Positions 42 to 33,517 of a stretch of DNA of 64,000 nt are shown here, piece after piece. The notes under the pieces are model-generated. The model did not search any database, had not been told where the DNA came from, and saw only the letters and a program-made list of their open reading frames with translations. Numbering within the stretch: the first letter of the stretch is position 1; each line of letters opens with the position of its first letter. The stretch comes from Microlunatus elymi (GTDB lineage: Bacteria > Actinomycetota > Actinomycetes > Propionibacteriales > Propionibacteriaceae): positions 620,001-684,000 of the forward strand of contig NZ_CP041692.1 of assembly GCF_007362775.1 (NCBI RefSeq), read 5' to 3'. Both the position numbers and the translations under genes were made by a program.

Positions 42-60
42 GGTCTCAGTTTTGGTCTCA
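42..60. repeat. Paired 7-bp repeat, putative integrase arm-binding sites (left, element 1)
   Basis: GGTCTCA occurs twice, at 42-48 and 54-60, with a 12-bp period. An identical pair lies at 24008-24026. The right-hand copy of the pair includes the integrase stop codon on the minus strand. A different 7-mer with the same 12-bp period flanks element 2, which suggests paired sites for the AP2-like N-terminal domain of the tyrosine integrase. Confidence 0.6.
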
Positions 61-1272: not shown

Positions 1273-1280
1273 GGCGATCC

Positions 1281-1562
1281 TCAAGCGCTCGCGGCGTGAG
1301 TCTGCGCCCGGAGCCTGCTGACGTACTCCTCCAAGCACTCGACCGGAATGCGGCGAAGCCGTCCGACCCGAACCGACTCGACCTCGCCGGAGCGGACCAG
1401 CTCGTACATCATCGAGCGCGCGATGCCCAGCCGAGCAGCCGCGTCCTCGATTCGCAACAGCAGCGTCGGAGCATCGATTTCCGTGTGTACGTGGATGTCC
1501 GAGCACGACTCATCTATGGGTGCAGACGTACTGGTCACCTGGTGTTCGTTGAGCTCATACAT
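1281..1562 (-). CDS. xis: Excisionase-like helix-turn-helix protein
   Basis: A short DNA-binding protein of about 93 residues. Its C-terminal half is a MerR/excisionase-type helix-turn-helix (RIEDAAARLGIARSMMYELV) followed by a wing (VRVGRLRRIPVECLEEYV). Such proteins bend attachment-site DNA and steer the integrase toward excision. The ATG at 1562 is chosen because GGAAAG lies about 8 nt upstream; a TTG two codons earlier is also open. The first 35 residues are acidic and have no domain I recognise. It sits directly upstream of int, the standard AICE order. Confidence 0.85.
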   Translation of the reverse strand: MYELNEHQVTSTSAPIDESCSDIHVHTEIDAPTLLLRIEDAAARLGIARSMMYELVRSGEVESVRVGRLRRIPVECLEEYVSRLRAQTHAASA

Positions 1563-4649: not shown

Positions 4650-4846
4650 AGCTGCGTCACCTGCTCCCACAGCCACGCCCCCGAAGCGTTCAGCGCTTGC
4701 TGCACCGGATCTCCGACCGGTGTCACGCCGATCACCAGACCGAACAGGACACAGACCACAGCGCCGCCGATCCGCAGGATCTTGGACTTGATCATGAACA
4801 CGATCAGCGCCCCGAGCAGGACGGCGACAGCGACAGCGCTCAACAT
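4646..4846 (-). CDS. Small two-pass membrane protein
   Basis: A 66-residue protein with two hydrophobic segments (about residues 2-20 and 27-44), then a polar tail. It overlaps the translocase start by 4 bp, so it is probably co-translated with it. A role in spreading or as an accessory to the translocase is a guess from position; small membrane Spd-like proteins are common next to TraB genes. Element 2 has no equivalent between its traB and its small upstream genes. Confidence 0.6.
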   Translation of the reverse strand: MLSAVAVAVLLGALIVFMIKSKILRIGGAVVCVLFGLVIGVTPVGDPVQQALNASGAWLWEQVTQL

Positions 4847-4849
4847 CGC

Positions 4850-5305
4850 TCACACCGCCTCGACCGCGGCTGGCCAGCTGATCAGCGAACCCGGCCGTTC
4901 GAAGCTGGGCTGACCATCTGCGGTCATGATCATCTGGGCGTGTTCGTGCGACCCGCCAGCATGGGCGAACGCGGCTAGGACCAGCGCCAGATGCTGCCGA
5001 TCCAGGCCCGCGAGCGTACCGCCCAGATCAGTGAGCGGCTGGCCGCCGATCAGCGCTGCGACGACGTTCAGCAGGCGGCGTTCGCCACCCGACAGCGCGC
5101 CAGCGCCGGTCCAGATCGCATCCGGGTTCAGCCAGAACCAACCGGATCGATCACACGGCTGCACCCACGGCCAGCCAGTCGAAACGAACCGACCGCCGAA
5201 CGACCGAGCCAACAACTCGACCGCCGCCTCTTCGGCGTACGAGTCACGAGCCCACGCCCGCAGGCCGGCGACCGTGACACTCACGTTCTCGGACATGATG
5301 ATCAC
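4850..5305 (-). CDS. Hypothetical AICE backbone protein
   Basis: A 151-residue protein without a family I recognise. It is mostly alanine- and glycine-rich, with tryptophans in TGWPWVQP and GWFWLNP and no membrane segment. A GTG at 5305 overlaps the upstream stop (GTGA); an ATG three codons later is an alternative. It lies between two other small genes of the minus-strand backbone operon, 4 bp from the membrane protein gene. The position suggests a role in replication or transfer control, but nothing in the sequence says which. Confidence 0.65.
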   Translation of the reverse strand: MIIMSENVSVTVAGLRAWARDSYAEEAAVELLARSFGGRFVSTGWPWVQPCDRSGWFWLNPDAIWTGAGALSGGERRLLNVVAALIGGQPLTDLGGTLAGLDRQHLALVLAAFAHAGGSHEHAQMIMTADGQPSFERPGSLISWPAAVEAV

Positions 5306-5679: not shown

Positions 5680-5715
5680 CGTGAACCTTCCCGTCGTTCT
5701 CGTCGGACCTGATGT

Positions 5716-5731: not shown

Positions 5732-5817
5732 GTCCGGTCGTCTGCAACAGGGGTTCGCTGTCCGGTGTCACGAAGCACTACTGCGCCACGTCAGGATGCG
5801 GCCCTACGCTGAGTCGC

Positions 5818-6180: not shown

Positions 6181-6219
6181 AACCGCACCCTGCGGTCCCT
6201 TCGACAGAAGGGAAAGACC

Positions 6220-7224: not shown

Positions 7225-7408
7225 CCCGCCTTCGTGAGACAACCGTTCAAACGTGGACAGTTGTCCGCACCGGATCCTGCATCGAGCAGACAACGGCAGG
7301 AGCCGACCCCAGCCCCGATGCACAACGCCGGACCTCGACTCAGTAAGTTGGCTGTCTCAGCGATCAAGTCGGAGAGACGCCTTCGCCCGTGGCCACAGGC
7401 AGGAATCA

Positions 7409-8404
7409 GTGAACGCTTCAGAGCATACTGTGAACGCAAGTCAGCGCGTGACCATCTACGTGCCAACCGTGCGTGGTGGCTTACTGAAGGACGCACACAT
7501 TGTGCGCGCGATGATGCGTTCGCTGGGGCGTGAATGCACGATCGCTCCGATGCGATACAACTCAAGCGCCAATGCGTACTCGATCCCCGACTACTCCCGG
7601 TCGGAAGACAGCCTGCATGTGTACCTTGAGGTGCTTCCAGAAGAGATCCGGAATGCAAGGTCGATATTCATTCCGAACCCTGAATGGTTCAAGCTGAAGT
7701 GGTCGTCGTCCATCAGCAGCATCGGGGCAATCTTTGCGAAGACGCGCGAGGCCCACGAGATCTTTAAGGGGATGGGAGCAAACTCGTACTACATAGGCTT
7801 CGCGTCGGCCGATCCCGGTTGCTCGGTTGACCCACACAAGCCAGTGTCATTTCTGTCTCTCTCAGGTAAGAGCCCACTGCGACAGGACGAACTCGTTGCT
7901 CAGGCGTGGTCAAACCATCCCGAGTGGCCGCTCGTCACCATCGTATCTTCGCTCCTTGGGGACAGTTGGAATCGCTCTAATGTCCGGATACTGTCGCCAA
8001 ACTACCGAAGTAGCGAGTTCACTGAGCGGCTCTTTAGTGGGGCCAGCTTCCACCTCTGCCTATCGCAGACCGAAGGGTGGGGACATTATGCGGTGGAGGC
8101 CCTGGCGGCGGGCGCGATCACCCTCTTCAGCACCTGTCAGCCGCTTCGAGAAACCCTCAGGAACTCCGGAGGACTTCCGGTGAGCGCGTCAAAGACGGAG
8201 CGAACCTCGGGCCTGGCAACTCTATACGACGTCGACTCAGGCTCGCTCGAGTTGGCTGTGGGCCGTGCCCTCGCGATGTCGGGTGACGAGCGCGAAGCCC
8301 GTTCCGCCCAAGCGCGCAGCCGCTTCGAGAAAATCTGGATAGAATTCCGTAGCCGGTTCACACGCAGCCTGGTAGACATTGAATATCGCTTCGGTCAAGA
8401 ATAG
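7409..8404 (+). CDS. GT4-type glycosyltransferase
   Basis: About 331 residues with a GT-B C-terminal half: SQTEGWGHYAVEALAAGA matches the nucleotide-sugar-binding EX7E-like region of GT4 enzymes. The N-terminal half (VTIYVPTVRGGLLKDAHIV) looks like an acceptor domain. The start is uncertain: GTG codons at 7409 and 7430 are both open, and only a weak GGAA precedes the first. It is the first cargo gene after the backbone regulator, separated by 185 bp with no obvious feature. Acceptor and sugar cannot be read from sequence. It may decorate the product of the operon at 10.1-20.3 kb. Confidence 0.75.
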   Translation: MNASEHTVNASQRVTIYVPTVRGGLLKDAHIVRAMMRSLGRECTIAPMRYNSSANAYSIPDYSRSEDSLHVYLEVLPEEIRNARSIFIPNPEWFKLKWSSSISSIGAIFAKTREAHEIFKGMGANSYYIGFASADPGCSVDPHKPVSFLSLSGKSPLRQDELVAQAWSNHPEWPLVTIVSSLLGDSWNRSNVRILSPNYRSSEFTERLFSGASFHLCLSQTEGWGHYAVEALAAGAITLFSTCQPLRETLRNSGGLPVSASKTERTSGLATLYDVDSGSLELAVGRALAMSGDEREARSAQARSRFEKIWIEFRSRFTRSLVDIEYRFGQE

Positions 8405-8416
8405 ACGCGTGCTCAC

Positions 8417-8899
8417 TCAGGCGCAATGCACCCGTTGATACCATGCGAAAGCAACCGGAAGTATCTGATTCATATCGGACGGAACGCGCAGTGTTTCGCG
8501 CAAGTCGCTCTCTGTGAACCAGCCAGATTCTGTAACCTCGTCCCTCTGCAGGGATATCTCAGACGATTCTGCAACACACGCGTACATGAACACCGCGTAG
8601 GCGGTAATCGCGCCACCACCGTAGTTCACCTCGAAATCTGAGCCTCCAAATCCGCCGATCAGATCGAGTTGCGGAAGATTCAACCCCGCTTCCTCGTACA
8701 CCTCACGCCGAGCGGCCGCCTCGGGCGACTCGCCAGGTTCCATCCCTCCCCCAGGAGTGGCCCACAGCCCATCATGAGCGTGGCGGAGCAGCAGGACCCT
8801 TCCATCCTTGTCGAAGATGGATGCGCCAGCAGCGGGAGTGAGCAACAGTCGATCACCGATCAGCTGACGGATATCGGACATGTACTTAGACCACGGCAT
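8417..8899 (-). CDS. Nudix hydrolase
   Basis: A 160-residue protein with a textbook Nudix box: GGGMEPGES, then REVYEEAGL (consensus GX5EX7REUXEEXGU, around residues 56-78). Nudix enzymes hydrolyse nucleoside diphosphates linked to another moiety. The gene ends 12 bp from the convergent glycosyltransferase. An ATG six codons in (8881) is an alternative start. It sits among genes for a nucleotidyltransferase and a HisG-like enzyme, so a substrate such as a nucleotide-sugar or nucleotidylated intermediate is possible, but that is inference from context. Confidence 0.88.
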   Translation of the reverse strand: MPWSKYMSDIRQLIGDRLLLTPAAGASIFDKDGRVLLLRHAHDGLWATPGGGMEPGESPEAAARREVYEEAGLNLPQLDLIGGFGGSDFEVNYGGGAITAYAVFMYACVAESSEISLQRDEVTESGWFTESDLRETLRVPSDMNQILPVAFAWYQRVHCA

Positions 8900-9018
8900 G
8901 TCGGAACTATCTCACAATCCGTGCACAGGCTCGATGCTGCGGCGAGTTCACCGAATCTGTGCGATAGTTGCCGTGGAGGGAACCCGGCGGAGTGGAGCCA
9001 CCGCCACCGTCGCGATTC

Positions 9019-10197
9019 ATGGGCCGTATGCGAGTTCTTTCAATCGATACCTGGGCGGGTGCCATGGGGCGCCTGTTCGGAGATGGTAGCGCAGCTGAGG
9101 ACCTCCGGACCGCGCTGACGACGGCCGGGCACACCGTTTCGCACTTCGGAATCAATCCGTTTACGGAGACCCTCGAATACGAGAACAGGGTTTGGAGGTT
9201 TCCCGGACACTACCGTCGTGAGGTGGGGCTACGCGCAACAGATCAACCGCAGGCGTTCATTCGGTCCATGCGTGACTTGAATAGGTTCGCGCTACCTGTG
9301 GTCGATGTTGCCCGCAGCAAGGCGGATGTAATCCATCTTCACACGGAGCTCGCCATGCCCGCTATTGAGGAGATTCGGCGACATACAAAGATTCCAATGG
9401 TGTACACTCAACACACAGTCAATCGCGTTCAGCTTGAGTTAAGTCGATGTAATTCAGTTGTCGCACGACTTCTCGTCACGATGCAGGATCGAGCTATTGA
9501 GACGGCCGATGAGTGGACGGCGCCATCCGCGTTGAAGTCCAATTCCACTCGACAGCCGGTCATCATTCCGCATGCTATCGGACACCGACATCCCATTCAG
9601 AATCGCTCTGCTGGACGTGTGCCGACGATCTTGTACGTGGGGCGACTGACGGCGATCAAGGGCATTGACCTCCTTCTCGACGCCTTAGATTTGGTGTCTC
9701 GCCAATTCCGTCTAGTCGTTGTCGGAACAGGACCTCGCCTTGAGGAGTATCGGCAGCGAGCGAGCGACCTAGGAATCGACGCCCTGTTCACCGGCCAGGT
9801 GCCTCGGGAAGAACTATGGGGCATCTATGCCCAGGCTGACATATTTGTCTGTCCCACCGAGTTCGACACCTACAACCTGACTGTGGATGAAGCCATGGCG
9901 AGCGGCCTACCGGTCCTGGCTAGTGAAATTGACGCCCTTCGCGGAAGAATTGAATCCGGATCAACGGGAATTCTGTGTCGACGAGACAAAGATACGTTCG
10001 CGGAATGTATCACCTATCTCATAGACCATCCGAAAGAGCGCCGAAAATTGGGGTCGGCGGCGCAGAAGAAACTCGCATCTCGAAGCATCGAGACCGCCTA
10101 CGCATACCTCGAAGTCTATTCGAGAGCACTCGAAGGAGCTGCTGAGCTCCGCTCTCCGCTATCGACCGCGAGCTCGACCGCAGTGTTGAACGCATAG
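9019..10197 (+). CDS. GT4-family glycosyltransferase
   Basis: A complete GT-B glycosyltransferase of 392 residues. The N-terminal domain begins MRVLSIDTWAGAMGR and carries HLHTELAMP. The C-terminal domain holds ILYVGRLTAIKGIDLLLDAL, then VCPTEFDTYNLTVDEAMASGLPVL with the two glutamates typical of GT4. ATG codons at 9019 and 9028 are equivalent choices. Its last 82 bp overlap the convergent oxidoreductase gene. Together with the gene at 7409 it supplies two sugar-transfer steps around the coupled operon. Confidence 0.88.
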   Translation: MGRMRVLSIDTWAGAMGRLFGDGSAAEDLRTALTTAGHTVSHFGINPFTETLEYENRVWRFPGHYRREVGLRATDQPQAFIRSMRDLNRFALPVVDVARSKADVIHLHTELAMPAIEEIRRHTKIPMVYTQHTVNRVQLELSRCNSVVARLLVTMQDRAIETADEWTAPSALKSNSTRQPVIIPHAIGHRHPIQNRSAGRVPTILYVGRLTAIKGIDLLLDALDLVSRQFRLVVVGTGPRLEEYRQRASDLGIDALFTGQVPREELWGIYAQADIFVCPTEFDTYNLTVDEAMASGLPVLASEIDALRGRIESGSTGILCRRDKDTFAECITYLIDHPKERRKLGSAAQKKLASRSIETAYAYLEVYSRALEGAAELRSPLSTASSTAVLNA

Positions 10198-11426
10198 GCT
10201 GCAAGTGCGAGCGCGCTGTTGTGTGAACCTGGGCGCGAGAAAGCTAGAGGCGAGAGAACCCGTAGGTTCGAGATGCCCGGCACGGAATCGGTTACGTCGA
10301 TATGACTTGATCCGAGGCCAGCCGAGGGAACCACGACGCGGGGCCACCGACGACCGCCGACGGCCCACGATGTGTGACCTGCCGGCTCAGACAGGCGATG
10401 CCCTTCATGGTCAACTGGAACTGCGGTGGCGCCCAAGTAGGTTGCTATTACGTTAACCACCTTGTCCATCGCGTCGTCCAAGGACTCCCAAGCTGCAACC
10501 CCTTGCAGGTCATGACCGGCAGAGTAGAGCCGCCCGGACCGGTCGGTAATCGCAAGAAACCCTGAAGCAAGCTCGACAACGCCAACTATCTTTAGGGTCG
10601 GAGAACTTTCTGCGTCGAGACTTATCTGGAGGTGCCAGTGAGCGTCTTCGAAAAAACCACGAATGAGGATTCTCGCACTAATGCAGTGGCTGTCACCGGT
10701 GAGTCGGTACTGAATTGAAGAATGACCGTGGCCACCGAGAAGCAGCGTCCTGGGAATCAAATCCATTGACCGCAGAATTTCCACAGTTCCACGGATCCCG
10801 GCTGCAAGGACGACTGGACGCGACGGGTCAACTGAGAACCTCTCCCTCTCGGAATGCAGAGCAGTGACACGACCGTTGGCGAATTCAAGACTGCGGATCT
10901 CACTGTCGGTACGGATGGTTGTTGGTGCAGAAGCCGAGGTCAGGCATGGGACTACTTTTCCTCCCCAAAGGCGCTCTGTTTGCTTGAGGCCGAACGCGGA
11001 GATCATTGCTGGTGCTGCGTGATTGACCCAAACGCCATGGGCGGCAAGACCTTCGACAATAGCGTCGAGCAGCAACGGATCATTCGGGTATGAGTCAACC
11101 GGGTTAAGGAACTGAGTCGCTGGTGGCAGGCCTCTCGTAACTGCCGCACGCTCGAGCCCAGACGTCTCTGAGGGGAGCGGAGGAACAAGCCAGCCTGCCC
11201 AAAAGTTGGATCCGCCGCCAGCAGATTGGACCTCGTCTGCCGCAGAAGTACCCGAGATCGGTCGGGCGAGTGGCCGGGAACTCTGCGAGTACATTCTCCG
11301 CAGCGTCGGTTCATTGAGGCCCTCGGGTATGGGAGCGCCGGTGGTGAACACATCCAGGGTGGCGCCCGTGCGGGCGGCGGCGTATGCCAATGACAAGCCG
11401 GCGACTCCGGACCCGATGATATACAC
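10116..11426 (-). CDS. GMC-type FAD-dependent oxidoreductase
   Basis: 436 residues starting at GTG, with AGGAG 7 nt upstream. The N-terminus is a dinucleotide-binding fold (YIIGSGVAGLSLAYAAARTG). The C-terminal signature NLRVLSPLAFSRPGSHNSAL matches the GMC oxidoreductase C-domain, in which the histidine and asparagine act in substrate oxidation. It would oxidise an alcohol or similar group with FAD. It is the last gene of the minus-strand cargo operon, 10 bp after the FkbM gene. The middle region is divergent from standard GMC enzymes, so substrate cannot be proposed. Confidence 0.75.
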   Translation of the reverse strand: MYIIGSGVAGLSLAYAAARTGATLDVFTTGAPIPEGLNEPTLRRMYSQSSRPLARPISGTSAADEVQSAGGGSNFWAGWLVPPLPSETSGLERAAVTRGLPPATQFLNPVDSYPNDPLLLDAIVEGLAAHGVWVNHAAPAMISAFGLKQTERLWGGKVVPCLTSASAPTTIRTDSEIRSLEFANGRVTALHSERERFSVDPSRPVVLAAGIRGTVEILRSMDLIPRTLLLGGHGHSSIQYRLTGDSHCISARILIRGFFEDAHWHLQISLDAESSPTLKIVGVVELASGFLAITDRSGRLYSAGHDLQGVAAWESLDDAMDKVVNVIATYLGATAVPVDHEGHRLSEPAGHTSWAVGGRRWPRVVVPSAGLGSSHIDVTDSVPGISNLRVLSPLAFSRPGSHNSALALAAYAFNTAVELAVDSGERSSAAPSSALE

Positions 11427-11435
11427 GGATGGCTC

Positions 11436-12287
11436 CTAGCCCATAGCTGTTGTCGGTTGGTCTCGGTCAAGGCCGTGCAGTCTCATCGACTCAAGGATGC
11501 GCTCGTAGGTCGACTGGCGGCTCTTCGGCGCCGCGAACCACAGAAGCTGGTCTCCTGGAATGTATGAGTGATCAGCGGATTGATGGCTGGATCCACCGTC
11601 CAGTTGAGTGGCTGTATAGCCGTGCTCGTTGAGAATCTCGAGGACCTCTTCACCCCCAGCGCCCAGATTTACTTCGACCAAGATGAGGGCCCCGCGCCGG
11701 AGCACTGACTGCGCGCCGCGTAAGACGAGATGCTCACAACCCTCGACGTCGATCTTGACCAAACCTGGCTGATCCGAATATCGAGCAATGGTGTCGAGCG
11801 TTGTAGTAGGCACTTCAATCTCCGCAGCCACGGATCGCCAACCCTTGCGTAAGCTCCCGGAGGCATCGCTGGTCGACGACTGGCGGAAGATCATCCGACC
11901 ATCACGATCAGCTACGGCGACAGGATATGAGCTCCACTTAGGTCCAGCAGCATTCACTGTGAGGTTCCGACCGAGGATGGACCTCAGCTGCGGGTTCGCT
12001 TCAATGGCCACACCGCCGAATCCTCGGGAGGTGGCCAGTGCTCCGTAGAGACCGACGTTAGCCCCAATGTCCCACACTAGATCGATGCGCGGATCGAGCT
12101 CCGATAACGCGCTGACAAACGCACCAATCCCCATCGGTTCATATAGCCCGATCGACCTCTCAAGTGCGGCGTGTATGACGCTGGAGCACGACGGGCCCTC
12201 GACTTGCTCACTATGCCCACGGACAATGGACTGGTCCCTGATAGCAACCCAAAGGCACGACGACTCACCGCAAAGTTGGCACGCCAT
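11436..12287 (-). CDS. FkbM-family SAM-dependent methyltransferase
   Basis: The ATG at 12287 yields 283 residues beginning MACQLCGESSCLW. The SAM-binding motif is VWDIGANVGLYGALA, followed by VAIEANPQL and, later, LVKIDVEGCEHLVLRGA, which is the FkbM hallmark. FkbM enzymes O-methylate natural products and sugars. An N-terminal CxxC pair precedes the usual domain. The start lies 22 bp inside the preceding nucleotidyltransferase gene, so the two are likely co-translated. Confidence 0.88.
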   Translation of the reverse strand: MACQLCGESSCLWVAIRDQSIVRGHSEQVEGPSCSSVIHAALERSIGLYEPMGIGAFVSALSELDPRIDLVWDIGANVGLYGALATSRGFGGVAIEANPQLRSILGRNLTVNAAGPKWSSYPVAVADRDGRMIFRQSSTSDASGSLRKGWRSVAAEIEVPTTTLDTIARYSDQPGLVKIDVEGCEHLVLRGAQSVLRRGALILVEVNLGAGGEEVLEILNEHGYTATQLDGGSSHQSADHSYIPGDQLLWFAAPKSRQSTYERILESMRLHGLDRDQPTTAMG

Positions 12288-12978
12288 GTCGTACGACCGC
12301 CTCCCAGAATCGAATGTCGCCTGCAAGGAAGTTCGCGTACTGATCGTCAGTACCGACGTCGGCGTACTCGCCCGGCCACGCAACGGAATCGACGGAACTC
12401 AGGACAGGCGGAGATCCCTCGCGGTCGCCGTGCCAAGGCATTGGATGTAGCAGTCCTGACGGATACGAGATCCTGCCTATGAGGCGACCACTGCCGCTCG
12501 GTGCGGAGGACGATGCCGCAGTCTCGCCGAGGGAAACCCGTTCGATGCGCGGTTGAGTGAGTTCTCGCCGAATGTGTGCCGTGTGTACTCGGTGCGTCGA
12601 TGTAGCCGACTCAATCTGAAGCATAGAGAGCCGCGGGTGGCAAAGTTCATCCGAATGCATTAACAACGTTGGCAGTCGACTTGTGAGAACGCTCAGGATT
12701 GCCGGTATGTCGGCCTTGCGGAACTCGATCAGCCTAGGAACCGGGACAGAAGTGGGTAGGTGCTCAACGAGGTTGTCGTACCATGCGGCGATAGCGAACC
12801 TCGAGGAACCTTCCGTGACAATGTCGATCGCACTTGCACCAGCAATGATTGCTTCCGAAACAACGCAGTCAAGTATCCTCGCGCTGGGCCCTAGTCTCTG
12901 AAGGCTCTTGTGCGCGACCGTTCGCTGAGCACTGCGACTGCCCAACCCGCCGCAGAGTATGAGAGCACGAAAACTCAC
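12265..12978 (-). CDS. NTP-transferase-like protein (sugar-phosphate nucleotidyltransferase fold)
   Basis: A 237-residue protein whose first 30 residues carry the nucleotidyltransferase signature (ALILCGGLGSR, with a later lysine in VAHKSLQRLG). A DVGTDDQYANF motif near the C-terminus is also typical of sugar-1-phosphate nucleotidyltransferases. It starts at a GTG that overlaps the preceding stop (GTGA). The family joins NTP to a sugar or other phosphate, releasing pyrophosphate. The middle of the protein is divergent and the substrate is unknown. It is co-translated with the HisG-like gene, which suggests sequential nucleotide chemistry. Confidence 0.75.
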   Translation of the reverse strand: MSFRALILCGGLGSRSAQRTVAHKSLQRLGPSARILDCVVSEAIIAGASAIDIVTEGSSRFAIAAWYDNLVEHLPTSVPVPRLIEFRKADIPAILSVLTSRLPTLLMHSDELCHPRLSMLQIESATSTHRVHTAHIRRELTQPRIERVSLGETAASSSAPSGSGRLIGRISYPSGLLHPMPWHGDREGSPPVLSSVDSVAWPGEYADVGTDDQYANFLAGDIRFWEAVVRHGVPTLR

Positions 12979-13577
12979 GAGATGGTTCCAATTCTGAGTA
13001 GGTCATAGATCTGACTCAATGTTTCGTCCGCGATACCCGGAAGCGTGTACAAGGCGGCGTAGCTCTCAAGGTACGAAGTTATGGCGACCAGCCCGTTATC
13101 GGCGAGTGTCTCACCGGTCATTACGGCATCGACCGCGACATCCGCGAGGCCCTCGCGAAGATACATCTCAGCGGCACCAGAGATAGGCCGGACAGTCGCA
13201 TTGGGGTACACCGGCCGGACAAACTTGTCCGCGAGGTTCGGATACTGGGATACTACGCGAAGCGCATCAGTCGTCACATAGGACTCACCCGGCCTCCCAA
13301 TCAGGCAGAGTTCATTCTTCTGATATCCGTAGTTCCAGGCCTCATGAAGAACTTCACCCAAACCAGCTTCCCATACGTAGTCTCTTCCTGTAACGACGGC
13401 GTCGCATACGGCTTCGGTCACCAACATCGGGAGGTCGGTCGATCGGGCCAGAAGGATCCGAAAGTCGCCAATCCTGGCCACGAGTCGCCGATTTCCCTGA
13501 AATTGGCCCAGCACTGAGGGACAGCTCGCGAGGACCTCACTCATAAGGCGCCCGGTGTTGGGAAGTCCAATGGTCAT
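12975..13577 (-). CDS. Short HisG-like ATP phosphoribosyltransferase paralogue
   Basis: 200 residues that follow the short form of HisG from end to end. It starts MTIGLPNTGRL (HisG: ALPKGRL) and has CDAVVTGRDYVWE (HisG: ADLGITGxDW) and VSQYPNLADKF. The PRPP-binding loop is GLADVAVDAVMTGETLADNG. HisG transfers phosphoribosyl from PRPP to N1 of ATP, the first step of histidine synthesis. No other his gene and no HisZ partner is nearby, so a housekeeping role is unlikely. The ATG at 13577 gives the family's natural start; an upstream ATG at 13622 would overlap the protease gene. Use on ATP or on another purine-like acceptor is open. Confidence 0.75.
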   Translation of the reverse strand: MTIGLPNTGRLMSEVLASCPSVLGQFQGNRRLVARIGDFRILLARSTDLPMLVTEAVCDAVVTGRDYVWEAGLGEVLHEAWNYGYQKNELCLIGRPGESYVTTDALRVVSQYPNLADKFVRPVYPNATVRPISGAAEMYLREGLADVAVDAVMTGETLADNGLVAITSYLESYAALYTLPGIADETLSQIYDLLRIGTIS

Positions 13578-13608
13578 GGGCCTTGACTCTGGTGATGGCC
13601 CCTTGAAT

Positions 13609-15039
13609 CTATATGTCCACATGGCGAGATCCGATCATGCCTACCGTACGGTGGTACTCGACCCTCGCATGTGAGATCCAGACGATCCTCACCGAGTACA
13701 TATCAGGCCCGGCATCCATCGGGACAGTGACCGAGATGCGCTGCTCGGCGAGCTGACTCCCGGGCTGTATGGCGTGGTACATCACGCCTACCTTCGACTT
13801 GTCCCGTACTTGAATGACTAAATTCCCGGATATTCGGGCCTTCGGGTCAACCGTCTGGCAGTGGATTTCTGCGGTTCCGCCAGCGTGCCATTTGACCGGC
13901 GTGCTCACTAGCAGTCGGACACCCTGAGGGGCAAGTGTTGTAGTGCCGCAAGCCAAACATCCGCGCTCCATGACCGGCACCCCGGCCTCATACGCATCGC
14001 TGTGTTCAACCTCATAGACACGCCCTCTGCAGAACTGGCAAATCGAGATCACCCTGCGATTGCGGGCGGCTCGCCTCCACTTCATAGCCTTGGTTAGGTT
14101 GTCGCCAACGCCCGCGAGTGATGATCCCCCTGATATCAATCTTTGCTCGACCAGAGAAATAATAGCTGCGTCCGTGGCGTCTACCAGGGTTGACAGCTTC
14201 TCGTTGGCTGTCGCGTCACGTTCTCTACCCGGCGGAGATCCACGATATGCGGCGAGGCGAACGCGACCTAGTGCGGCCTGGAGGTGCTGCGTCTCCGCCG
14301 CCTCGATTAGTTTCGTCGCGAATGCTGCTGAGACGAGGCGCTCCGTCGAAAGGGTGTTCCGTGGCAGATCACTCAGGCTCATATCGGCTAATTCTGGCAG
14401 TGACACAGTCACGTCTGTGCCGAGGCGTACGAAGTATCCGCCGAGACCATATCTGTAGCCGTCGTTCAGCCGATGGCAGATATCCCCCAACGTTTCGCCG
14501 CGTTGCCATGCACTCCGTATGAATTCGATCTGCTCAGGTGTGACCGGCATTTGACGCGTGGTGCCGACGACTTCCGTGAATCCTGATCTGATCGCGGTCA
14601 TTGCGATCCCTGGCCGGGTATCACCGAAGGTGTACTGTCCGGCGACATTGAGGCTGTTGCACGACAGCAGAACCAGGACATCACCAGGCATATCGCGCAC
14701 AAAGACTAAGCGGGCAGCGTAACGCTCCCTGACGCATCGGCGCAGGTCGGCAGAGCACGGTCCACCCATCGGACGGACCTCGCCGCAGACAACTGTACCG
14801 TCCTCCAGGATTATGTGATTGCCGTCGCCGTGTCCGGCGAGAACGATCAACAGTTTCCCGTCAGGCGACATGGCCAGAGGCGCATCTACTTCGGCGTTCC
14901 GAACGCGTAATTCAGAATTGGAGTCCGTGACGAACGTCTCTGGGGCCTCCATTGGGACAAGCAGCGAAGCTCCACCAGCTTGGGCCTTCTCCGCGAGCGC
15001 TTCGAGGTTGTCGAACGTCCACCCGCTGTCGATCTGCAT
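13609..15039 (-). CDS. Caspase-fold (CHAT-like) cysteine protease with zinc ribbon
   Basis: About 476 residues. The caspase-like core has its histidine in LLIVLAGHGDG (His70) and its cysteine in VLVLLSCNS (Cys127), each after a hydrophobic strand, as in clan CD proteases and CHAT domains. Residues 334-364 hold a zinc ribbon of two CxxC pairs (CQFC, CLAC). A beta-rich C-terminal domain of about 100 residues follows. AGGA lies 6 nt before the chosen ATG. It sits 9 bp after the DUF1152 gene. In this operon it is the obvious candidate to cut the leader from the small acidic peptide, though that is inference. Confidence 0.7.
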   Translation of the reverse strand: MQIDSGWTFDNLEALAEKAQAGGASLLVPMEAPETFVTDSNSELRVRNAEVDAPLAMSPDGKLLIVLAGHGDGNHIILEDGTVVCGEVRPMGGPCSADLRRCVRERYAARLVFVRDMPGDVLVLLSCNSLNVAGQYTFGDTRPGIAMTAIRSGFTEVVGTTRQMPVTPEQIEFIRSAWQRGETLGDICHRLNDGYRYGLGGYFVRLGTDVTVSLPELADMSLSDLPRNTLSTERLVSAAFATKLIEAAETQHLQAALGRVRLAAYRGSPPGRERDATANEKLSTLVDATDAAIISLVEQRLISGGSSLAGVGDNLTKAMKWRRAARNRRVISICQFCRGRVYEVEHSDAYEAGVPVMERGCLACGTTTLAPQGVRLLVSTPVKWHAGGTAEIHCQTVDPKARISGNLVIQVRDKSKVGVMYHAIQPGSQLAEQRISVTVPMDAGPDMYSVRIVWISHARVEYHRTVGMIGSRHVDI

Positions 15040-15047
15040 TTCTGTTC

Positions 15048-16175
15048 CTAATCCGTCTGCATGGCTGGGATTTCGCATGTGTCCGCTCTAGCCACAGTTT
15101 CGGACGCAGCACGCGCGGTTGATCGGTCAACAACTGGCGAAAGCTCTGGGTTCCGGCGGCTGAGCGAACGGTGAAGCCGCGCCAACAGTTCGCGAGTCGG
15201 TTTTGGGCCGGACATGAACCGTGACAAGCTCCTGATGGTTATGTACGGTTCAGTGACATAGGCATCGAACGACAGCCGTGGTCCGTCTGCCGAATAGCTG
15301 CCCCACTCTGCATGGTGCCGCAGTTCGTCGGGGAAGCCCAGTTCAACAAGCTTCGCTTGAACCGTCGTGATGGAGTCCGCTGGACCGAAAAGACTACCGG
15401 GGACTCCACTATCTAGCAGGTCGTCCAACTGGATGCGGTAGTTGCGAGCCGAGAATTCGGATGTCTCGACGGCAGATCCGAATGGCTCGCCGACCTGCAC
15501 GCGCATCGGGTGACATAGGACGGACAGAAGTGCCAGTAGGCTGGCCTCGGTACGGCATACACGTCCCCGAGTATGCCAACTTCGTGCCACCTTCCGGTCA
15601 ATAGCCGGCAATCTCGTTGGGGTCAATTTGCCAAGGAACTCTTCGATCTGACCCCGAGACAACTCGCCATCTAGGCCGAGCCCTCCGACAATGACAGTCT
15701 TGTCGTCATGGCGAACTCGCCGCAGCGCCGTGATGAGGAGGGCCTCGCTTAGTGGGCTCACCACCCCAGGTGCTGGTCCGTTCGCCAGAACATCTCCGCC
15801 GACGTCGACGAGGGAAATCTCATCGGCCCGGTGCTGCTCTGCGAGATGCTCAATCTGTTGACTTAAGGGTTCGGCCACGTTCAGGGCATACAGCGGGGCC
15901 GGAGCCAAGATATCGGCGATTACCGGCAGCTGCGACGCGCACCCAAGAGCCGACGTTCCACCGGTAACGCGATAGCCGCCGCCGTCGCGGGCGATCCCTT
16001 TCAGATCTGACAGCGCTCTTGGCCCGACATGAGGATCGACAGACGGCCTTTCCCAAGGGATCGCCGCGTAGATCGCCCATCGGCGTTGAGTCTCTGCGAT
16101 CGCTGCTGCCAGCAGTAGGTCGCCCAGACCGCCCGACGCGACGTAAAGGGTCACTCCTTGATGTCTGAAGGTCAC
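15048..16175 (-). CDS. DUF1152 family protein
   Basis: A 375-residue protein that starts at GTG, overlapping the stop of the small peptide gene by 4 bp (GTGA). A glycine-rich N-terminal loop (YVASGGLGDLLLAAAIAE) resembles a nucleotide-binding turn. ERPSVDPHVGPRALSDLKGI and VDVGGDVLANG match the conserved DUF1152 blocks as I remember them. The family has no established biochemical role. Direct coupling to the putative precursor suggests binding or modification of the peptide. The last 50 residues are less conserved and rich in arginine and serine. Confidence 0.75.
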   Translation of the reverse strand: MTFRHQGVTLYVASGGLGDLLLAAAIAETQRRWAIYAAIPWERPSVDPHVGPRALSDLKGIARDGGGYRVTGGTSALGCASQLPVIADILAPAPLYALNVAEPLSQQIEHLAEQHRADEISLVDVGGDVLANGPAPGVVSPLSEALLITALRRVRHDDKTVIVGGLGLDGELSRGQIEEFLGKLTPTRLPAIDRKVARSWHTRGRVCRTEASLLALLSVLCHPMRVQVGEPFGSAVETSEFSARNYRIQLDDLLDSGVPGSLFGPADSITTVQAKLVELGFPDELRHHAEWGSYSADGPRLSFDAYVTEPYITIRSLSRFMSGPKPTRELLARLHRSLSRRNPELSPVVDRSTARAASETVARADTCEIPAMQTD

Positions 16176-16312
16176 CAGCTGAAGACTGCCGGCCCGACTT
16201 CGGACTCGTCGGCCTCCTCCAGCTCATAATCGCTCATGGAGTCGAGCAGATGGGCCATCACTTCGTCAAGGCCCGGGCCCTCGAGTTCGTTTGCGGGCTG
16301 TTCAACCGCCAT
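16172..16312 (-). CDS. Putative precursor peptide, 46 residues, acidic
   Basis: A short gene with a perfect AAGGAG seven bases before its ATG. The peptide is strikingly acidic: 13 Asp/Glu in the first 38 residues, no Lys or Arg and one His. A helical segment around LDEVMAHLLDSMSDYE looks like a leader. The C-terminus is uncharged and ends EVGPAVFSW. The stop TGA overlaps the GTG start of the DUF1152 gene by 4 bp, so both are translated together. Small size, acidic leader, hydrophobic tail and neighbouring exporters, protease and tailoring enzymes all fit a ribosomally made, modified peptide. No known precursor family is recognised. Confidence 0.7.
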   Translation of the reverse strand: MAVEQPANELEGPGLDEVMAHLLDSMSDYELEEADESEVGPAVFSW

Positions 16313-16315
16313 TCG

Positions 16316-16513
16316 TCAGCTCCTTCGCTGGTCGCGCCATCGTGGCTTGCTGATCCTAACCGGGGCAAGCTCACTCGGCGATACTTTTTTGTAAGTTCTC
16401 GTAGCAGGGTCTGCCGCTGCGACCGGGGACGACCCTGGCCACATCCAGTCGAAGACAGTGTTGAGGACTGTAGTTGCAGAACCAACGTAGATCTGCCGCG
16501 ATCTGGCTCTCAA
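16316..16513 (-). CDS. Possible small upstream peptide gene
   Basis: An open frame in the 272-bp gap before the precursor gene ends 3 bp before the precursor ATG. From a TTG at 16513 it gives 65 residues. From the internal ATG it gives 42, beginning MWPGSSPVAAADPATRTYK, with a basic C-terminus (KPRWRDQRRS). No good ribosome site precedes either start, and third-position GC is only moderate. The close spacing to the precursor is the main argument for it. It may equally be spacer. Confidence 0.25.
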   Translation of the reverse strand: MRARSRQIYVGSATTVLNTVFDWMWPGSSPVAAADPATRTYKKVSPSELAPVRISKPRWRDQRRS

Positions 16514-16584
16514 TACGGAACGAGCGGTTGGTGCATCCGACCCAACCTGAGACGGAGCCCTGTCGAAGCCGTCGCAAGGGGTTG

Positions 16585-18384
16585 TCAGGCCGTTGCCCCA
16601 TCAGACTCATATCCACGGGCCTGCTGCATGAACAGGCTCCGATACTGGGTCTGTCTCGCCATGAGCTCATCATGAGTGCCCGCTTCGGCAATGCGGCCAT
16701 CGTCGATTACGACGATTTGGTCAGTCATCGTAACTGTCGAGAAACGGTGTGAAACAAGAATCGTGACAGCTCCGGTGCGCGCGGCGATCGAGCGTGCTCG
16801 TTCGGCGAAACGTCTGAACAAGTCATGCTCGGCCTGCGGGTCAAGAGTGGCTGTCGGCTCGTCAAGTACAAGGATGACAGGATCGGGTCGCATCATGCCA
16901 CGGCTAAGGGCGACTCGCTGCCACTGTCCCTGACTGGGGCGGTGACCATCAAAGGTGGATCCAAGCTGTGTTGTCCACTGCTTCGGGAGCCGCTCAATGA
17001 AGCTGTCGGCACTGCCCTCTTCGGCAGCTCGTGCTACGGCCGGAATGTTGTCGATCTCAGGCAGGTGCCCGATGCCGATGGCCTCATGCGCCAGCGTCTG
17101 GGGCCGGAGGTAGTCCTGGAACGTTGCTGACGTCGATTGAGAGAGCTGTCCGGGCTCCACCGGAGCGCCGTCAGCAAGCAGTTGACCGCCCGTGGGTGTA
17201 TAGAGCCCCGTAAGCAGCATCACCAGTGTGGACTTTCCGGCGCCGTTGACGCCTACGATTCCAAGCACGCTTCCTGCAGGGATGTGGAGATTGATGTCGG
17301 TCAGGACATCTTTTCTCCCTCCGGGATACCGAAAGGAAACGTGGTCCAAACTGATCCCGTGTCTAAGCTGGCCGATTGGATTTCTAGCTCTGGGGAGCTC
17401 TTCTGTACGTTCCTTTAGCCATAGGTAGTGTTCGGTGACCCTTCCGGATTCGATGACACTGTTCCTGGCGCGCAGAACCGCGCTGACCTGCCCAAGCAAG
17501 CCAACCGTCAGCGCCATCGTAACGGCGATGTCGCCGATGCTTAGCGCCTGTCGATGCGCCAGTTCGATGACCCACCACGTGCTCAGGCCGATGCCGAGCG
17601 TGTAGAAGGCCCAGCCGCTGGCAGTGAGCGCCACGGTCACGGCGCGGACCCGTAACTCCTTCCGAGCCGCCTCAATCCAAATCTGCGATGCCGCGCGGTC
17701 GACGGCGTTTCCTTGGTCGGACCCCTTGATCTCAGCAAGGGACTCCGGCTTGGTCGCCAGTTGATGTAGATCTTCTTCCCAGCGCAGCAGATGCTCCGTG
17801 CTATCTACGATGTTGAGATGAAGTATTCCCGCCCTACCCGCAAGCAAGACAGCTGGCACTGTGAACACGACGACGAGCGGCAGAAGTATGTCGACGCGAA
17901 AGAGCAGGGCTAACGTGACCATGAGTGCGACAACGGTGCCAATCGCGGAGATCGCGGCCCATGCGGCGTACGCGACCGCCCCTGCATCACGAAGAACTCG
18001 ACTTTGCCTGTCTAGGTATTCCGGCTCTTCAAGGTGCTCGACAGTCGCAGCCTCGGTAGACCAATGCAACAGGTCGGTAGTCAACTCCAACTCGGTCAGT
18101 TCCGACAGCTCTCTAGTGAGGCTGTACTCGTAGAGTCCGCCAATCTGGGCGACGACCAAGAATGCGGCACCAATTGTCCCGGCGAGGAAGACACGCAACA
18201 ACAGCGTGTTCTGAAGACCGTCGACAAGTTGGCCTTGTGTCCAGGCGAGAACGCTCGGGGCAGTCACTCGGGCCAGGATCAGCGCAAGCACGGTTAGCGT
18301 CGTTGCGCGCCGCCGTCGTAAACACATGACCACTACATAAGCGGTGAACCTGACCTTCGACCACGCACGTGATGTGGTTTTCAA
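16585..18384 (-). CDS. ABC exporter half-transporter with degenerate signature motif
   Basis: A 599-residue type I ABC exporter: about six membrane segments in the first 320 residues, then an ATPase domain. Walker A is GVNGAGKS, Walker B is VILVLDEPTATLD, and the H-loop is LVSHRFST. The signature reads RPSQGQWQRV instead of LSGGQ, so this subunit probably forms a degenerate composite site. No C39 peptidase domain is present. It overlaps the preceding exporter gene by 4 bp from a TTG start. The pair should form a heterodimer that exports the product of this operon. Confidence 0.88.
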   Translation of the reverse strand: MKTTSRAWSKVRFTAYVVVMCLRRRRATTLTVLALILARVTAPSVLAWTQGQLVDGLQNTLLLRVFLAGTIGAAFLVVAQIGGLYEYSLTRELSELTELELTTDLLHWSTEAATVEHLEEPEYLDRQSRVLRDAGAVAYAAWAAISAIGTVVALMVTLALLFRVDILLPLVVVFTVPAVLLAGRAGILHLNIVDSTEHLLRWEEDLHQLATKPESLAEIKGSDQGNAVDRAASQIWIEAARKELRVRAVTVALTASGWAFYTLGIGLSTWWVIELAHRQALSIGDIAVTMALTVGLLGQVSAVLRARNSVIESGRVTEHYLWLKERTEELPRARNPIGQLRHGISLDHVSFRYPGGRKDVLTDINLHIPAGSVLGIVGVNGAGKSTLVMLLTGLYTPTGGQLLADGAPVEPGQLSQSTSATFQDYLRPQTLAHEAIGIGHLPEIDNIPAVARAAEEGSADSFIERLPKQWTTQLGSTFDGHRPSQGQWQRVALSRGMMRPDPVILVLDEPTATLDPQAEHDLFRRFAERARSIAARTGAVTILVSHRFSTVTMTDQIVVIDDGRIAEAGTHDELMARQTQYRSLFMQQARGYESDGATA

Positions 18385-20126
18385 TCCAACCCCTGCCCGA
18401 GGTTATTGCCAGCTGCTTCGAAGCGACTGGCTTGAAGCCGGAAAAGTGAGGCGTAGCGTCCACCAGCTGTCATTAGCTCGCCGTGGGTTCCGCACTCTGT
18501 CAGTCGGCCACCGTCTAGTAGCGCGATTCGGTCTGCGGAGCGAACGGTTGACAGTCGATGCGAGATCAAAACGACTGAGGCGCCGTTCAGGTTGCGCACG
18601 ATCTGATCAAAGAACTCCGCCTCAATCGCGGCATCGAGGAAGGCCGTGGGCTCGTCCATAACCACGAGTCGCTTGCCACCGCGGACAGCATAGAGAATGC
18701 GAGCCAGTGCCACTCTCTGCCACTGCCCCCCAGACAGATCAATGCCGTCTCGCTGCTGTTTGGACAACACAGTGTCAATCCCGAACGGTAGCTGTTCGAC
18801 TAGGTCCTCGCCAGCGGCCAATCGAATTGAGTCTAAGACAGCATCTCTGTCGATGGGGCCATCCGATGATATAGCGACGTTCTCGGCAAGGGTCAACGGA
18901 TAGCGGACAAAGTCCGAGAACAGCACAGCGGTGTTGCTGGGGGGACCTGAATTGCCTGGCCAGGAAACTGAGCCTGTGGTGGGCTGGTACAACCCGGTGA
19001 GTAGCTTCGCGAGAGTTGTCTTTCCAGCGCCGTTAACTCCAACAAGCCCCACCACCTCTCCTGGCGCGATGTCCAGGTCAAAGTGATCGATCACAAGGGG
19101 ACCGTCGCCATATCCAAAAGAAACCCGTTCCAGTCGGATCTGACCATCCGAAGAAGTGGCGAAAGGAGCCGGAGCATTCTCGGATGCACGTCGCTCAAGG
19201 TAGTCGACTGCCGCTAAGGCGCTCACTGCGAAGCTGGTCATTTGAGCCCTACCGCTGGGCCATGTCGCGAAATAGGCAGCCGATCCCGCCACGATCGCCC
19301 CGACGAACCCGGCTGTGCCGATCTGACCGTTCCAGGCAAGCCAGGACGGCCAGGCGAATATCACTGCAGCCGTTCCAGCCATCAACGCTACGACGCCGCG
19401 CTGGCCACGTAGCGCGTCGCGACGAGCGCGCCATAGAGGGTGCAAGTACTCGGTCGCTTGCCGGTAATGGCGTTCGCGGGCCCAGCCCCCTAGGCCGAAG
19501 ACTCGCAGGTCCCGGGCACCCGCGGCGCCGACGGCCAATTCGCTCCAATAGGCGGTCCTGCGCGACCCAGCCGCTTCAATCGCGGCTCCGTCGTCTCCGC
19601 GCAGCGATAGTTGTTTGCGCCATTCGCGAAGACCGAGCACCAATAGCCCAACAGTTACTGCCAACGGAACGTTGGCCTGTCCGATCACGACGCAGGAAGC
19701 GATCATGCTACCTACTCTGAATAGGTCCTCCAGCTGGGCGAACGCTCCGCTGCCGATGGACTGGCTATACCCATTCGGGCCGCTGGAGGTCGTGGCTAGT
19801 GCAGCCGCGTCTAGTACCTCAGGGTCTTCTACGTCGCTCTGCTCAGGCATACCCGAGAGGAGGAGTCGAACACGGCTTCGGACGTCGCCATCTATGGCGC
19901 GCCCAACGGCACGATTCAGCACCTCCATCGTGTAGGCGCATAGCTCTCGCAGTGCGAGCAGAACACACAGTGCAACGATCAATTGAAGCGGCTGCCGCCC
20001 GTCTAGTGCGGCGCTAATAATCCCGGCAGTCAGAGCTGCAGACAGTGCTGGGGTAACTGCAAACCCAAGATTCGATATGACCAGCGCAACCAATAGTCCC
20101 TTTGGCGCCTGCAGTAGCATTGCCAT
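18381..20126 (-). CDS. ABC exporter half-transporter
   Basis: About 581 residues, with six membrane segments followed by an ATPase domain. Walker A is GVNGAGKT, the canonical signature is LSGGQWQRV, Walker B is LVVMDEPTAFLD and the H-loop is LISHRLST. The ATG at 20126 is chosen because GAGG lies about 9 nt upstream; a TTG start at 20147 is also open. No peptidase domain is fused, so leader removal must be done by another protein, plausibly the caspase-fold enzyme. It is the first large gene of the minus-strand cargo operon. Confidence 0.88.
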   Translation of the reverse strand: MAMLLQAPKGLLVALVISNLGFAVTPALSAALTAGIISAALDGRQPLQLIVALCVLLALRELCAYTMEVLNRAVGRAIDGDVRSRVRLLLSGMPEQSDVEDPEVLDAAALATTSSGPNGYSQSIGSGAFAQLEDLFRVGSMIASCVVIGQANVPLAVTVGLLVLGLREWRKQLSLRGDDGAAIEAAGSRRTAYWSELAVGAAGARDLRVFGLGGWARERHYRQATEYLHPLWRARRDALRGQRGVVALMAGTAAVIFAWPSWLAWNGQIGTAGFVGAIVAGSAAYFATWPSGRAQMTSFAVSALAAVDYLERRASENAPAPFATSSDGQIRLERVSFGYGDGPLVIDHFDLDIAPGEVVGLVGVNGAGKTTLAKLLTGLYQPTTGSVSWPGNSGPPSNTAVLFSDFVRYPLTLAENVAISSDGPIDRDAVLDSIRLAAGEDLVEQLPFGIDTVLSKQQRDGIDLSGGQWQRVALARILYAVRGGKRLVVMDEPTAFLDAAIEAEFFDQIVRNLNGASVVLISHRLSTVRSADRIALLDGGRLTECGTHGELMTAGGRYASLFRLQASRFEAAGNNLGQGLD

Positions 20127-20143
20127 CAGGCGGCCTCGCCGTA

Positions 20144-20308
20144 TCAAAACGACACTCCAATCCAGCTGCGCCGGTCGTGAGCCAGCAGCTGCTCTGCAGC
20201 GGCGAGACGCAGGTTGAGCAATGATGGCACCGTTCGGCTAGCTCCGCCACTTTGCCTCACCGAGTGTGTCGTTGCATTGGCAACCTCCGCTGCTCTCACA
20301 TCGAGCAT
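20144..20308 (-). CDS. Possible small leader gene of the cargo operon
   Basis: A 54-residue frame starting ATG with GGAGG only 3 nt upstream and ending 17 bp before the exporter ATG. The second half is a plausible amphipathic helix (LLNLRLAAAEQLLAHDRR), and the peptide ends SWIGVSF. It could be a second precursor, a small accessory protein or chance. Codon use in the second half fits coding sequence, while the first half overlaps another open frame. Confidence 0.35.
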   Translation of the reverse strand: MLDVRAAEVANATTHSVRQSGGASRTVPSLLNLRLAAAEQLLAHDRRSWIGVSF

Positions 20309-22637: not shown

Positions 22638-23063
22638 TCAGCGTAAGGGTCCGTCGAGCGGAACCTCGGAGAGCCCCGTCTGATTCACCAGATAGAACCA
22701 CGGTCCCTCCGGCCTATCTGCGACTATCTGCTCCATCCGATTCCAGTACCGCACGAACCGGCCGAGCCAGTCCCAGGTCGACTGGTCCTGCTTTCCGCCG
22801 ATCCTGAAGACGCGTAATCCAGATTCCCGAATTGCTTCACGCTCAGCCGGCCGAGTTCGAATGCGTTTGTCACGGCCGATTGCCACCAGTCCCCTCGCGG
22901 CCACCGCACGCATCCAGTCGTCGTCAAGTGTGCCGAGAGGGCACTCCGGGATTAGCGGGTGACCGACGTGGATAACATCCTTCCTCGCAGCCGTCAGAGT
23001 TCGCCCAAGCCCCAGCGCGCTCTCGTCAACGTAGAACCGCTCCGCACCTGACACGGCAGTCAT
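22638..23063 (-). CDS. PIN-like toxin of a VapC45-type pair
   Basis: A 141-residue protein with a compact PIN-like layout: an N-terminal acidic motif (FYVDESALGLGRTL), a central DDDW, and GRDKRIRTRPAER. This resembles the PIN-like proteins paired with DUF433 antitoxins, such as Mycobacterium tuberculosis Rv2019. It would cleave RNA when its antitoxin is lost. It starts 6 bp after the antitoxin stop. Such a pair would help retain element 1 in the chromosome. Confidence 0.75.
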   Translation of the reverse strand: MTAVSGAERFYVDESALGLGRTLTAARKDVIHVGHPLIPECPLGTLDDDWMRAVAARGLVAIGRDKRIRTRPAEREAIRESGLRVFRIGGKQDQSTWDWLGRFVRYWNRMEQIVADRPEGPWFYLVNQTGLSEVPLDGPLR

Positions 23064-23069
23064 CGGATG

Positions 23070-24026: not shown

Positions 24027-24122
24027 TCCACCACCGTCCAGCGGCGTCCATGCAGGCCAATTCGGGCGGTACGTTACCCCGGCCGCAGCGAGAAATCGCT
24101 GCCCGGACCCCCACGAGACGAC

Positions 24123-24179
24123 CTGCTAAGCGGGTTGAGGGCTCAAACCCTCTCGCGGGTTCAAATCCCGCCGCCTCCG
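24123..24179 (+). pseudogene. Displaced 3' fragment of tRNA-Ser(GCT), right attachment site of element 1
   Basis: The fragment begins in an anticodon loop with GCT (CTGCTAAG) and includes a long variable arm (GAGGG/CCCTC), a T-arm (GCGGG-TTCAAAT-CCCGC) and the acceptor strand CGCCTCC with discriminator G. No matching 5' half or anticodon stem lies upstream. This is the usual scar at the distal end of a tRNA-integrated island. Confidence 0.8.
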
Positions 24180-24462
24180 CCCCTGCGAAGTGTCTGCGGA
24201 CATCGAGTGATGTTCCCAGATCTCGCCCGGCCCGAACTCTCGTACGAGGGTTCGGGCCGTTTGCGTCTCCCGGCCCGAGTCCGCGGCTGCCCGCACTCCC
24301 GCGCGCAAGATCGACTCCCGCACCCGAACCCGCCGCCGACCAACACTGCCGCGCGCAAAACCGGCTCGCGCGGCCGAAATACCGGGTGCGGGAGACGATT
24401 TGGCGCGCGGCTACGACCGGCGACCGCGAAAGTGGCGGACGGCGTTCGTAGGAAGGGTTTCC

Positions 24463-33515: not shown

Positions 33516-33517
33516 GA

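Follow-up and report, generated by a model that had tools for sequence, protein, structure and literature searches.

Background

In mycofactocin gene clusters a small peptide with an aromatic C-terminus is encoded together with a protease and an MftG-like FAD enzyme, and a comparable combination is found in the minus-strand operon of Microlunatus elymi that we describe here. The operon lies in a 64,000-nucleotide stretch of contig NZ_CP041692.1 (positions 620,001 to 684,000), which is called the window and from the first letter of which all coordinates are counted. It differs from mycofactocin loci in having no radical SAM match and in that the match of its FAD enzyme falls far below the cut-off. 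Microcin C-like systems use a ThiF-like enzyme to attach the nucleotide. The window operon resembles these in that a short ribosomal peptide encoded with nucleotide-type enzymes would give a nucleotide-bearing peptide; however, its enzymes are HisG-like and MobA-like and are joined by a protease, and no ThiF family was matched among the genes scanned in this operon or in its Curtobacterium relative. The peptide is also longer than the precursors of microcin C-like systems, most of which have seven amino acids (PMC6495379).

AdeC, AdeL, PenA and PyrS provide a third comparison, since each is a HisG duplicate that has moved into specialised metabolism; the terms "precursor peptide" and "caspase" are absent from the main text in which these proteins are treated (PMC13055916). 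Finally, the setting of the operon resembles the actinomycete integrative and conjugative elements (AICEs) of the pSAM2 type, with an integrase, RepSA, an FtsK-type gene and insertion at a tRNA gene flanked by direct repeats. The window element is distinguished by having this biosynthetic operon as its cargo; there are published papers on AICEs and biosynthetic clusters.

Results and discussion

A five-gene core shared by two lineages

The best reading of the locus, to which we give a probability of about 0.62, is that of a biosynthetic operon resembling those for ribosomally synthesized and post-translationally modified peptides (RiPPs), carried on a pSAM2-type element and making a modified, exported peptide on which a five-gene core performs the defining chemistry. 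The nine-gene run described in the first-pass annotation is present in full on the minus strand between 10116 and 20147, although that annotation places the operon end (20308) 161 bp upstream of the first exporter gene in its longest frame. The core consists, in order, of a putative precursor peptide of 46 amino acids, acidic and ending in FSW (16172..16312); a DUF1152 protein (15048..16175; PF06626, E = 1.4e-36; start at GTG 16175 or GTG 16154); a caspase-like (clan CD-like) cysteine protease with a putative C-terminal CxxC...CxxC zinc ribbon (13609..15078; start at 15078 or 15039); a short HisG-like phosphoribosyltransferase (12975..13622; PF01634, E = 1.4e-23); and a nucleotidyltransferase-like protein (12265..12978).

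The same five genes occur in the same order in Curtobacterium sp. UCD-KPL2560. This locus came to light when genome contigs were scanned with a degenerate DNA pattern encoding GHGDGxH..L.D, a block that the window protease shares with its remote homologue in G547. The pattern matched at least 120 genome stretches and, in a viral scan, two more loci; among the 122 loci read, one, L128, contained a clear protease relative, and another, L175, gave a protease match of E = 0.04. Amino acid identities between the window and Curtobacterium proteins are 31% for DUF1152 (L128:2554-3564), 36% for the protease, 38% for HisG (L128:449-1132) and 33% for the nucleotidyltransferase (L181:15721-16563, itself a PF12804 match, E = 5.6e-9). 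Directly before the Curtobacterium DUF1152 gene lies an acidic open reading frame (ORF) of 30 amino acids with a strong ribosome-binding site (L128:3626-3718). An extended contig adds the nucleotidyltransferase (PF12804), an MFS protein, a GNAT acetyltransferase and a methyltransferase. Exporters and tailoring genes differ between the Microlunatus and Curtobacterium sets, while the core is constant.

A protease profile built from three rows matched 2 of 66 Curtobacterium genomes (G870 and G897) and 2 of 329 genomes in the same family (G870 and G959). The second Curtobacterium copy, in G897, is 99.7% identical over 19 kb, and G870 and G897 are therefore one lineage in practice. A small acidic ORF precedes DUF1152 in all three genomes that carry the core, two of them near identical. 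The proposal that such an ORF should precede DUF1152 in other carriers of the set was checked in part: it is present in the one other lineage found, with the C-terminal SW shared.

The candidate precursor peptide

The 46-amino-acid ORF has the sequence features of a gene, with AAGGAG 7 nucleotides upstream of the ATG and a G+C content by codon position of 0.74/0.36/0.74. What it has in common with its Curtobacterium counterpart is position, size, acidity and the last residues only, the window peptide ending in AVFSW and the Curtobacterium peptide in NLMSW. An SW terminus was found in 36 of 8006 examined ORFs of 25 to 80 amino acids. The three that end in [AVLIMF][FM]SW are exactly the three cluster peptides, two of which are near identical; this count describes rarity and is not a test, because the motif was picked after the peptides had been seen. 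Behind the Curtobacterium gene the stop codon is followed by a 12-bp stem, and an 81-nucleotide stretch has a folding energy of -37.8 kcal/mol (z = -4.46), which none of 200 shuffles equaled. A hairpin after the precursor gene is a common arrangement that yields more precursor than enzymes.

The core enzymes

The label "caspase" given to the protease in the first-pass annotation is based on a conserved His (HGDG) and Cys (SCN) and is weaker than stated, as the protein has no Pfam family above cut-off and no sequence match to a solved structure. The dyad occurs in the expected order, with HGDG and SCxS conserved in all three aligned homologues (SCN in the window), and H83, C140, C347, C350 and C377 are invariant among them. 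C374 is common to the window and Curtobacterium, so that all four C-terminal cysteines are present in the two cluster copies. The homologue in G547 (L035/L054) belongs to a different operon, where it comes after genes for a NUDIX protein, a ThDP enzyme and three redox enzymes that contain iron; this operon may encode another peptide pathway that employs a protease of this family. The relative in G959 lies after a set named from sequence as radical-SAM-type and aminotransferase-like. Given these contexts, the protease looks like a recurrent component whose link with a peptide is not universal in the loci seen. Of the three Haem_oxygenas_2-type proteins at L054 (3256-11072), two pass the Pfam cut-off and the third narrowly misses it; an integrase gene lies some 6 kb beyond. 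A possible 35-amino-acid ORF before the NUDIX gene would start, by our reading, at an ATG inside a longer frame.

DUF1152 has no solved-structure relative detectable by sequence (best E = 0.88). At two other loci, in two genomes, DUF1152 genes adjoin what read as radical-SAM (HemW-like) and ATP-grasp-like genes (L028, ~9600-13270; L026, ~5390-10300), neighbors hinting that DUF1152 may be a natural-product enzyme more widely.

PF01634 scores above cut-off in both cluster HisG proteins, as does TIGR00070 for the window copy. G000, G870 and G897 each encode a long-form HisG elsewhere, with the short cluster HisG as a second copy, and the latter is therefore unlikely to be the histidine-pathway enzyme of the genome. 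In a tree of 11 sequences, the two cluster copies and nine comparison HisGs, the cluster copies pair with 97 ultrafast bootstrap and 0.996 SH-like support. They keep the pattern of the phosphoribosyl pyrophosphate (PRPP) loop (TGETL and TGLSL), but the N-terminal PNKG/PKG lysine, present in all nine comparison HisGs, is replaced by T or Q. They also read VSQYPN where six of the nine comparison HisGs read ATSY and a Streptomyces nucleoside-type copy reads VSEY. From the missing lysine and the VSQYPN motif, an altered acceptor is the natural inference. A HisG profile scored E <= 1e-22 in 2 of 251 cases, the genome's own and G728; the latter was set aside, as it reads PNKG and is followed by a HisC-like gene. 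The window nucleotidyltransferase has no Pfam match of its own, whereas its Curtobacterium homologue is MobA-like (PF12804); the two share the motifs GGLG(S/T)R, H(S/T)DELC and D.GTD.

A proposed pathway

We infer every catalytic step of the pathway. The acidic peptide would be made ribosomally, its N-terminal part serving as the leader and the C-terminal stretch ending in Phe-Ser-Trp being the part that is modified or released. The GPAVFSW tail picked out in the first-pass annotation is a candidate core. The five core genes would supply the defining chemistry. The HisG-like enzyme most likely uses PRPP to place a 5-phosphoribosyl group on an acceptor that belongs to the C-terminal Ser-Trp or derives from it, after which the nucleotidyltransferase would act on the phosphate left by that step. 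DUF1152 would be an enzymatic part of the core with a role that we leave unspecified, and the caspase-like protein would remove the leader. The FkbM methyltransferase and the FAD enzyme may then finish the product, and the two ABC proteins would export it. Modification of the peptide with a phosphoribosyl or nucleotidyl group is a plausible hypothesis. A fuller version, which is doubtful and offered tentatively, is a new RiPP class with a nucleotide-tailed peptide as its product, in which the duplicated and re-purposed HisG phosphoribosylates the C-terminal Ser-Trp from PRPP, the MobA-like enzyme caps the phosphate, the caspase-like protease frees the product and the integrative element spreads the system.

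Evidence against the RiPP-like reading, and its rivals

Several observations weigh against a RiPP-like operon. The 46-amino-acid peptide has no match in Pfam or NCBIfam, and its similarity to the Curtobacterium peptide is equaled or exceeded by 1708 of 5000 shuffles for the whole peptide and by 2780 of 5000 when the last four residues are removed. The window peptide gene overlaps DUF1152, leaving neither a gap nor a hairpin behind it, and the 278 nucleotides upstream of it fold no better than shuffles. Core sets were found in two independent lineages only, and the G959 operon showed no clear peptide gene in the three gaps read. The remaining points on this side concern the HisG-like enzyme. 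PMC13055916 places the HisG homologues AdeC, AdeL, PenA and PyrS in nucleoside antibiotic clusters, and reports that AdeC and AdeL do not complement an E. coli hisG mutant. A plasmid of Streptomyces anulatus also carries a HisG-like gene among nucleotide enzymes.

The occurrence of HisG duplicates in nucleoside antibiotic clusters makes a nucleoside-type product a serious rival, although we consider it unlikely. Here the HisG-like enzyme would join PRPP to a nucleotide in the fashion of pentostatin or adechlorin, the nucleotidyltransferase and tailoring enzymes would continue from there, and the small ORF would be regulatory or incidental. Non-complementation by AdeC and AdeL is in keeping with this, as is the plasmid HisG, whose VSEY may be compared with the VSQY of the cluster copies. 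Yet that nucleoside-type copy retains the lysine that the cluster HisGs lack, the window operon has no counterparts to the plasmid's MazG-domain, AIR-synthase-related and aldo/keto reductase genes, and the protease gene and SW-ending peptide ORF are kept in both lineages. The plasmid set itself (L202, 5015-14181, NZ_CP109414.1) is likely a nucleoside-type cluster, its HisG-like gene lying among MazG-domain, AIR-synthase-related, reductase and phosphatase genes; four S. anulatus plasmids carry a HisG match, L202 being the one whose neighboring genes were read, and plasmid HisG matches are at most 33% identical.

A quite unlikely alternative is that the peptide is a scaffold, its C-terminal Trp or Ser-Trp being modified while still attached, after which the caspase-like protease would free it as a non-peptide small molecule. 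C-terminal residues are used in much this way in the mycofactocin, PQQ and pearlin pathways. The two peptides share only the extreme terminus [FM]SW, which would suit such a use, and the operon encodes a protease-like protein along with an FAD enzyme that distantly resembles MftG. Against this, scanning of the genes in both operons matched no radical SAM family, the resemblance to MftG is weak, and the Curtobacterium set showed no enzyme of that kind.

Bacterial conflict systems often have caspase-like effectors and the operon lies on an integrative element, but a defence or conflict operon with the caspase-like protein as effector and the peptide as inhibitor or sensor is very improbable. PADLOC gave no match for 9 of 10 proteins tested (the ABC proteins and the peptide being outside the tested set); the methyltransferase of Curtobacterium was the tenth, with matches to mad2 and to methyltransferase models. 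Biosynthesis also accounts well for exporters and for tailoring enzymes that vary.

Searches for further clusters

The set, taken as a RiPP-like operon, appears rare. A protein search with DUF1152 found 2 matches among 146 relatives, the genome's own included; the other is a weak match in G144, whose 20-kb region contained no match to other operon genes. Within the phylum PF06626 occurs in 16 of 396 genomes, this one among them, and ten extended regions, covering 8 of the 15 other PF06626 genomes and G144, contained no protease, HisG or nucleotidyltransferase by tblastn; the PF06626 genomes without an extension were compared over short loci only. At E <= 0.01 the protease query had matches in 27 of 394 genomes. 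Apart from the genome's own match, L035 and L036 were read, and the other 24 have E values between 7.9e-5 and 0.01. L035 (G547) is a real relative, while L036, which we take to be an IMP-dehydrogenase-type protein, was counted as a chance match. A two-row protease profile matched one of three genomes in the family of G547 (G547 itself) and one of 396 in the phylum (own). Scans of viral contigs found no relatives. In plasmids and phages the protease search was negative, and DUF1152 had a single weak match (29% identity over 41% of the query).

Operon layout and accessory genes

The junctions, which had been described as mostly overlapping by 4 bp or closely spaced, are so for the most part. Four-bp overlaps join the two ABC genes, the peptide and DUF1152 genes, and the HisG and nucleotidyltransferase genes. 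DUF1152 and the protease overlap by 31 bp (the next in-frame start gives an 8-bp gap), the protease and HisG by 14 bp (the next start gives a 31-bp gap), and the nucleotidyltransferase and FkbM genes by 119 bp in the longest frame, or 23 bp with the ATG at 12287; the FkbM and FAD enzyme genes are 9 bp apart. The exception is a gap of 272 bp between the second ABC gene and the peptide gene, so that the peptide gene may be the first of a separate transcript. Scans for promoters and terminators gave no more than shuffled sequence does.

The exporters are permease-ATPase proteins, ABC exporter 1 (18381..20147; PF00005, E = 5.4e-21, with a full-length MsbA-type match below cut-off) and ABC exporter 2 (16585..18384; PF00005, E = 6e-23). 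In both lineages a protease-like protein and exporters are encoded near the peptide, the latter being an ABC pair in the window and an MFS protein in Curtobacterium. Two accessory genes follow the core, an FkbM-family methyltransferase (11436..12383; PF05050, E = 2.4e-18; start at 12287 or 12383) and an FAD-dependent oxidoreductase (10116..11426). The latter had been called a GMC oxidoreductase, a label weaker than stated: a distant MftG/GMC likeness is present, but the match to the MftG model TIGR04542 (E = 2.8e-5) scores 23 bits against a cut-off of 400.

Beyond the oxidoreductase lie genes of uncertain membership on the plus strand, a family-4 glycosyltransferase (8968..10197; PF13692, E = 6.2e-30), the 3' end of which overlaps the oxidoreductase gene, and a glycosyltransferase-like protein (7253..8404; PF00534, E = 4.1e-4, below cut-off). 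A NUDIX hydrolase (8417..8899, minus strand; PF00293, E = 4.5e-24) may belong to the mobile element rather than to the cluster; pSAM2 also has a NUDIX-type protein.

The mobile element

The operon is low-GC, probably horizontally acquired cargo of a pSAM2-like integrative element in tRNA-Ser(GCT), a setting on which the first-pass annotation was silent. Its G+C content is 59.4%, compared with 67-68% in the flanks. The element, of about 24 kb, is delimited by its integrase, RepSA and FtsK-type genes and by 64-bp exact repeats of the tRNA gene, and thus has every feature by which pSAM2-type AICEs are recognized (integrase, RepSA, FtsK-type protein and tRNA attachment repeats). On the minus strand are a tyrosine integrase (58..1506; PF00589, E = 4.4e-19), a pSAM2-type replication initiator (1639..3165; PF20199 RepSA, E = 2.8e-91) and an FtsK/SpoIIIE-type transfer protein (3162..4853; PF01580, E = 7.6e-10). 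The right attachment repeat, an exact copy of the 3' part of tRNA-Ser(GCT), is at 24122..24185 on the plus strand, and the left copy is at -88 to -25, that is, 25-88 bp left of the window, in the 3' part of the tRNA gene. The DUF1152 protein had no match in any of the 19 congeners listed (G001-G019). In a comparison with eight congeners the flanking sequence was too divergent for an empty integration site to be recognized.

At the right end of the element (22638-23918) a PIN_10 protein is encoded beside a DUF433 and helix-turn-helix (HTH) protein, a toxin-antitoxin-like arrangement. A second AICE-type set (integrase, RepSA and FtsK; 32089-36638) adjoins tRNA-Arg (31946-32021). Its RepSA looks split, because the match at 33518-34501 spans only model positions 236-409 and the frame 34465-35229 resembles, as we read it, the missing front part. 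Further on, 39154-45798 encodes a protein of 2214 amino acids that matches the RHS repeat (PF05593) and is apparently a large repeat protein destined for secretion.

Relation to known classes

The nine genes of the window operon and the seven scanned Curtobacterium core and accessory proteins have no Pfam match to lanthipeptide, YcaO, lasso, radical SAM, ATP-grasp or ThiF families. The description of the system as RiPP-like and matching no known class therefore stands, because no class-defining enzyme was matched in either operon and the accessory genes vary as they do in natural-product clusters. In the open-access literature we found no paper on DUF1152, none joining RiPPs with caspase-like, HisG, FkbM, phosphoribosyltransferase or nucleotidyltransferase proteins, and none on a C-terminal tryptophan with a phosphoribosyl group; the related papers there concern other systems, judging by their titles and the start of their abstracts. 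Within that literature the class was not found described. The set is best read as a candidate RiPP class, and a rare one.

Conclusion

The proposal lends itself to direct testing, since the two lineages share both the [FM]SW terminus and the five-gene core. If it is true, a RiPP-like class exists whose core enzymes are DUF1152, a second copy of HisG, a MobA-like transferase and a caspase-like protein that has no Pfam family, and mining rules keyed to known class-defining enzymes would probably miss it. DUF1152 would gain a pathway context, and an enzyme family of the histidine pathway would have been re-purposed beside a ribosomal peptide.

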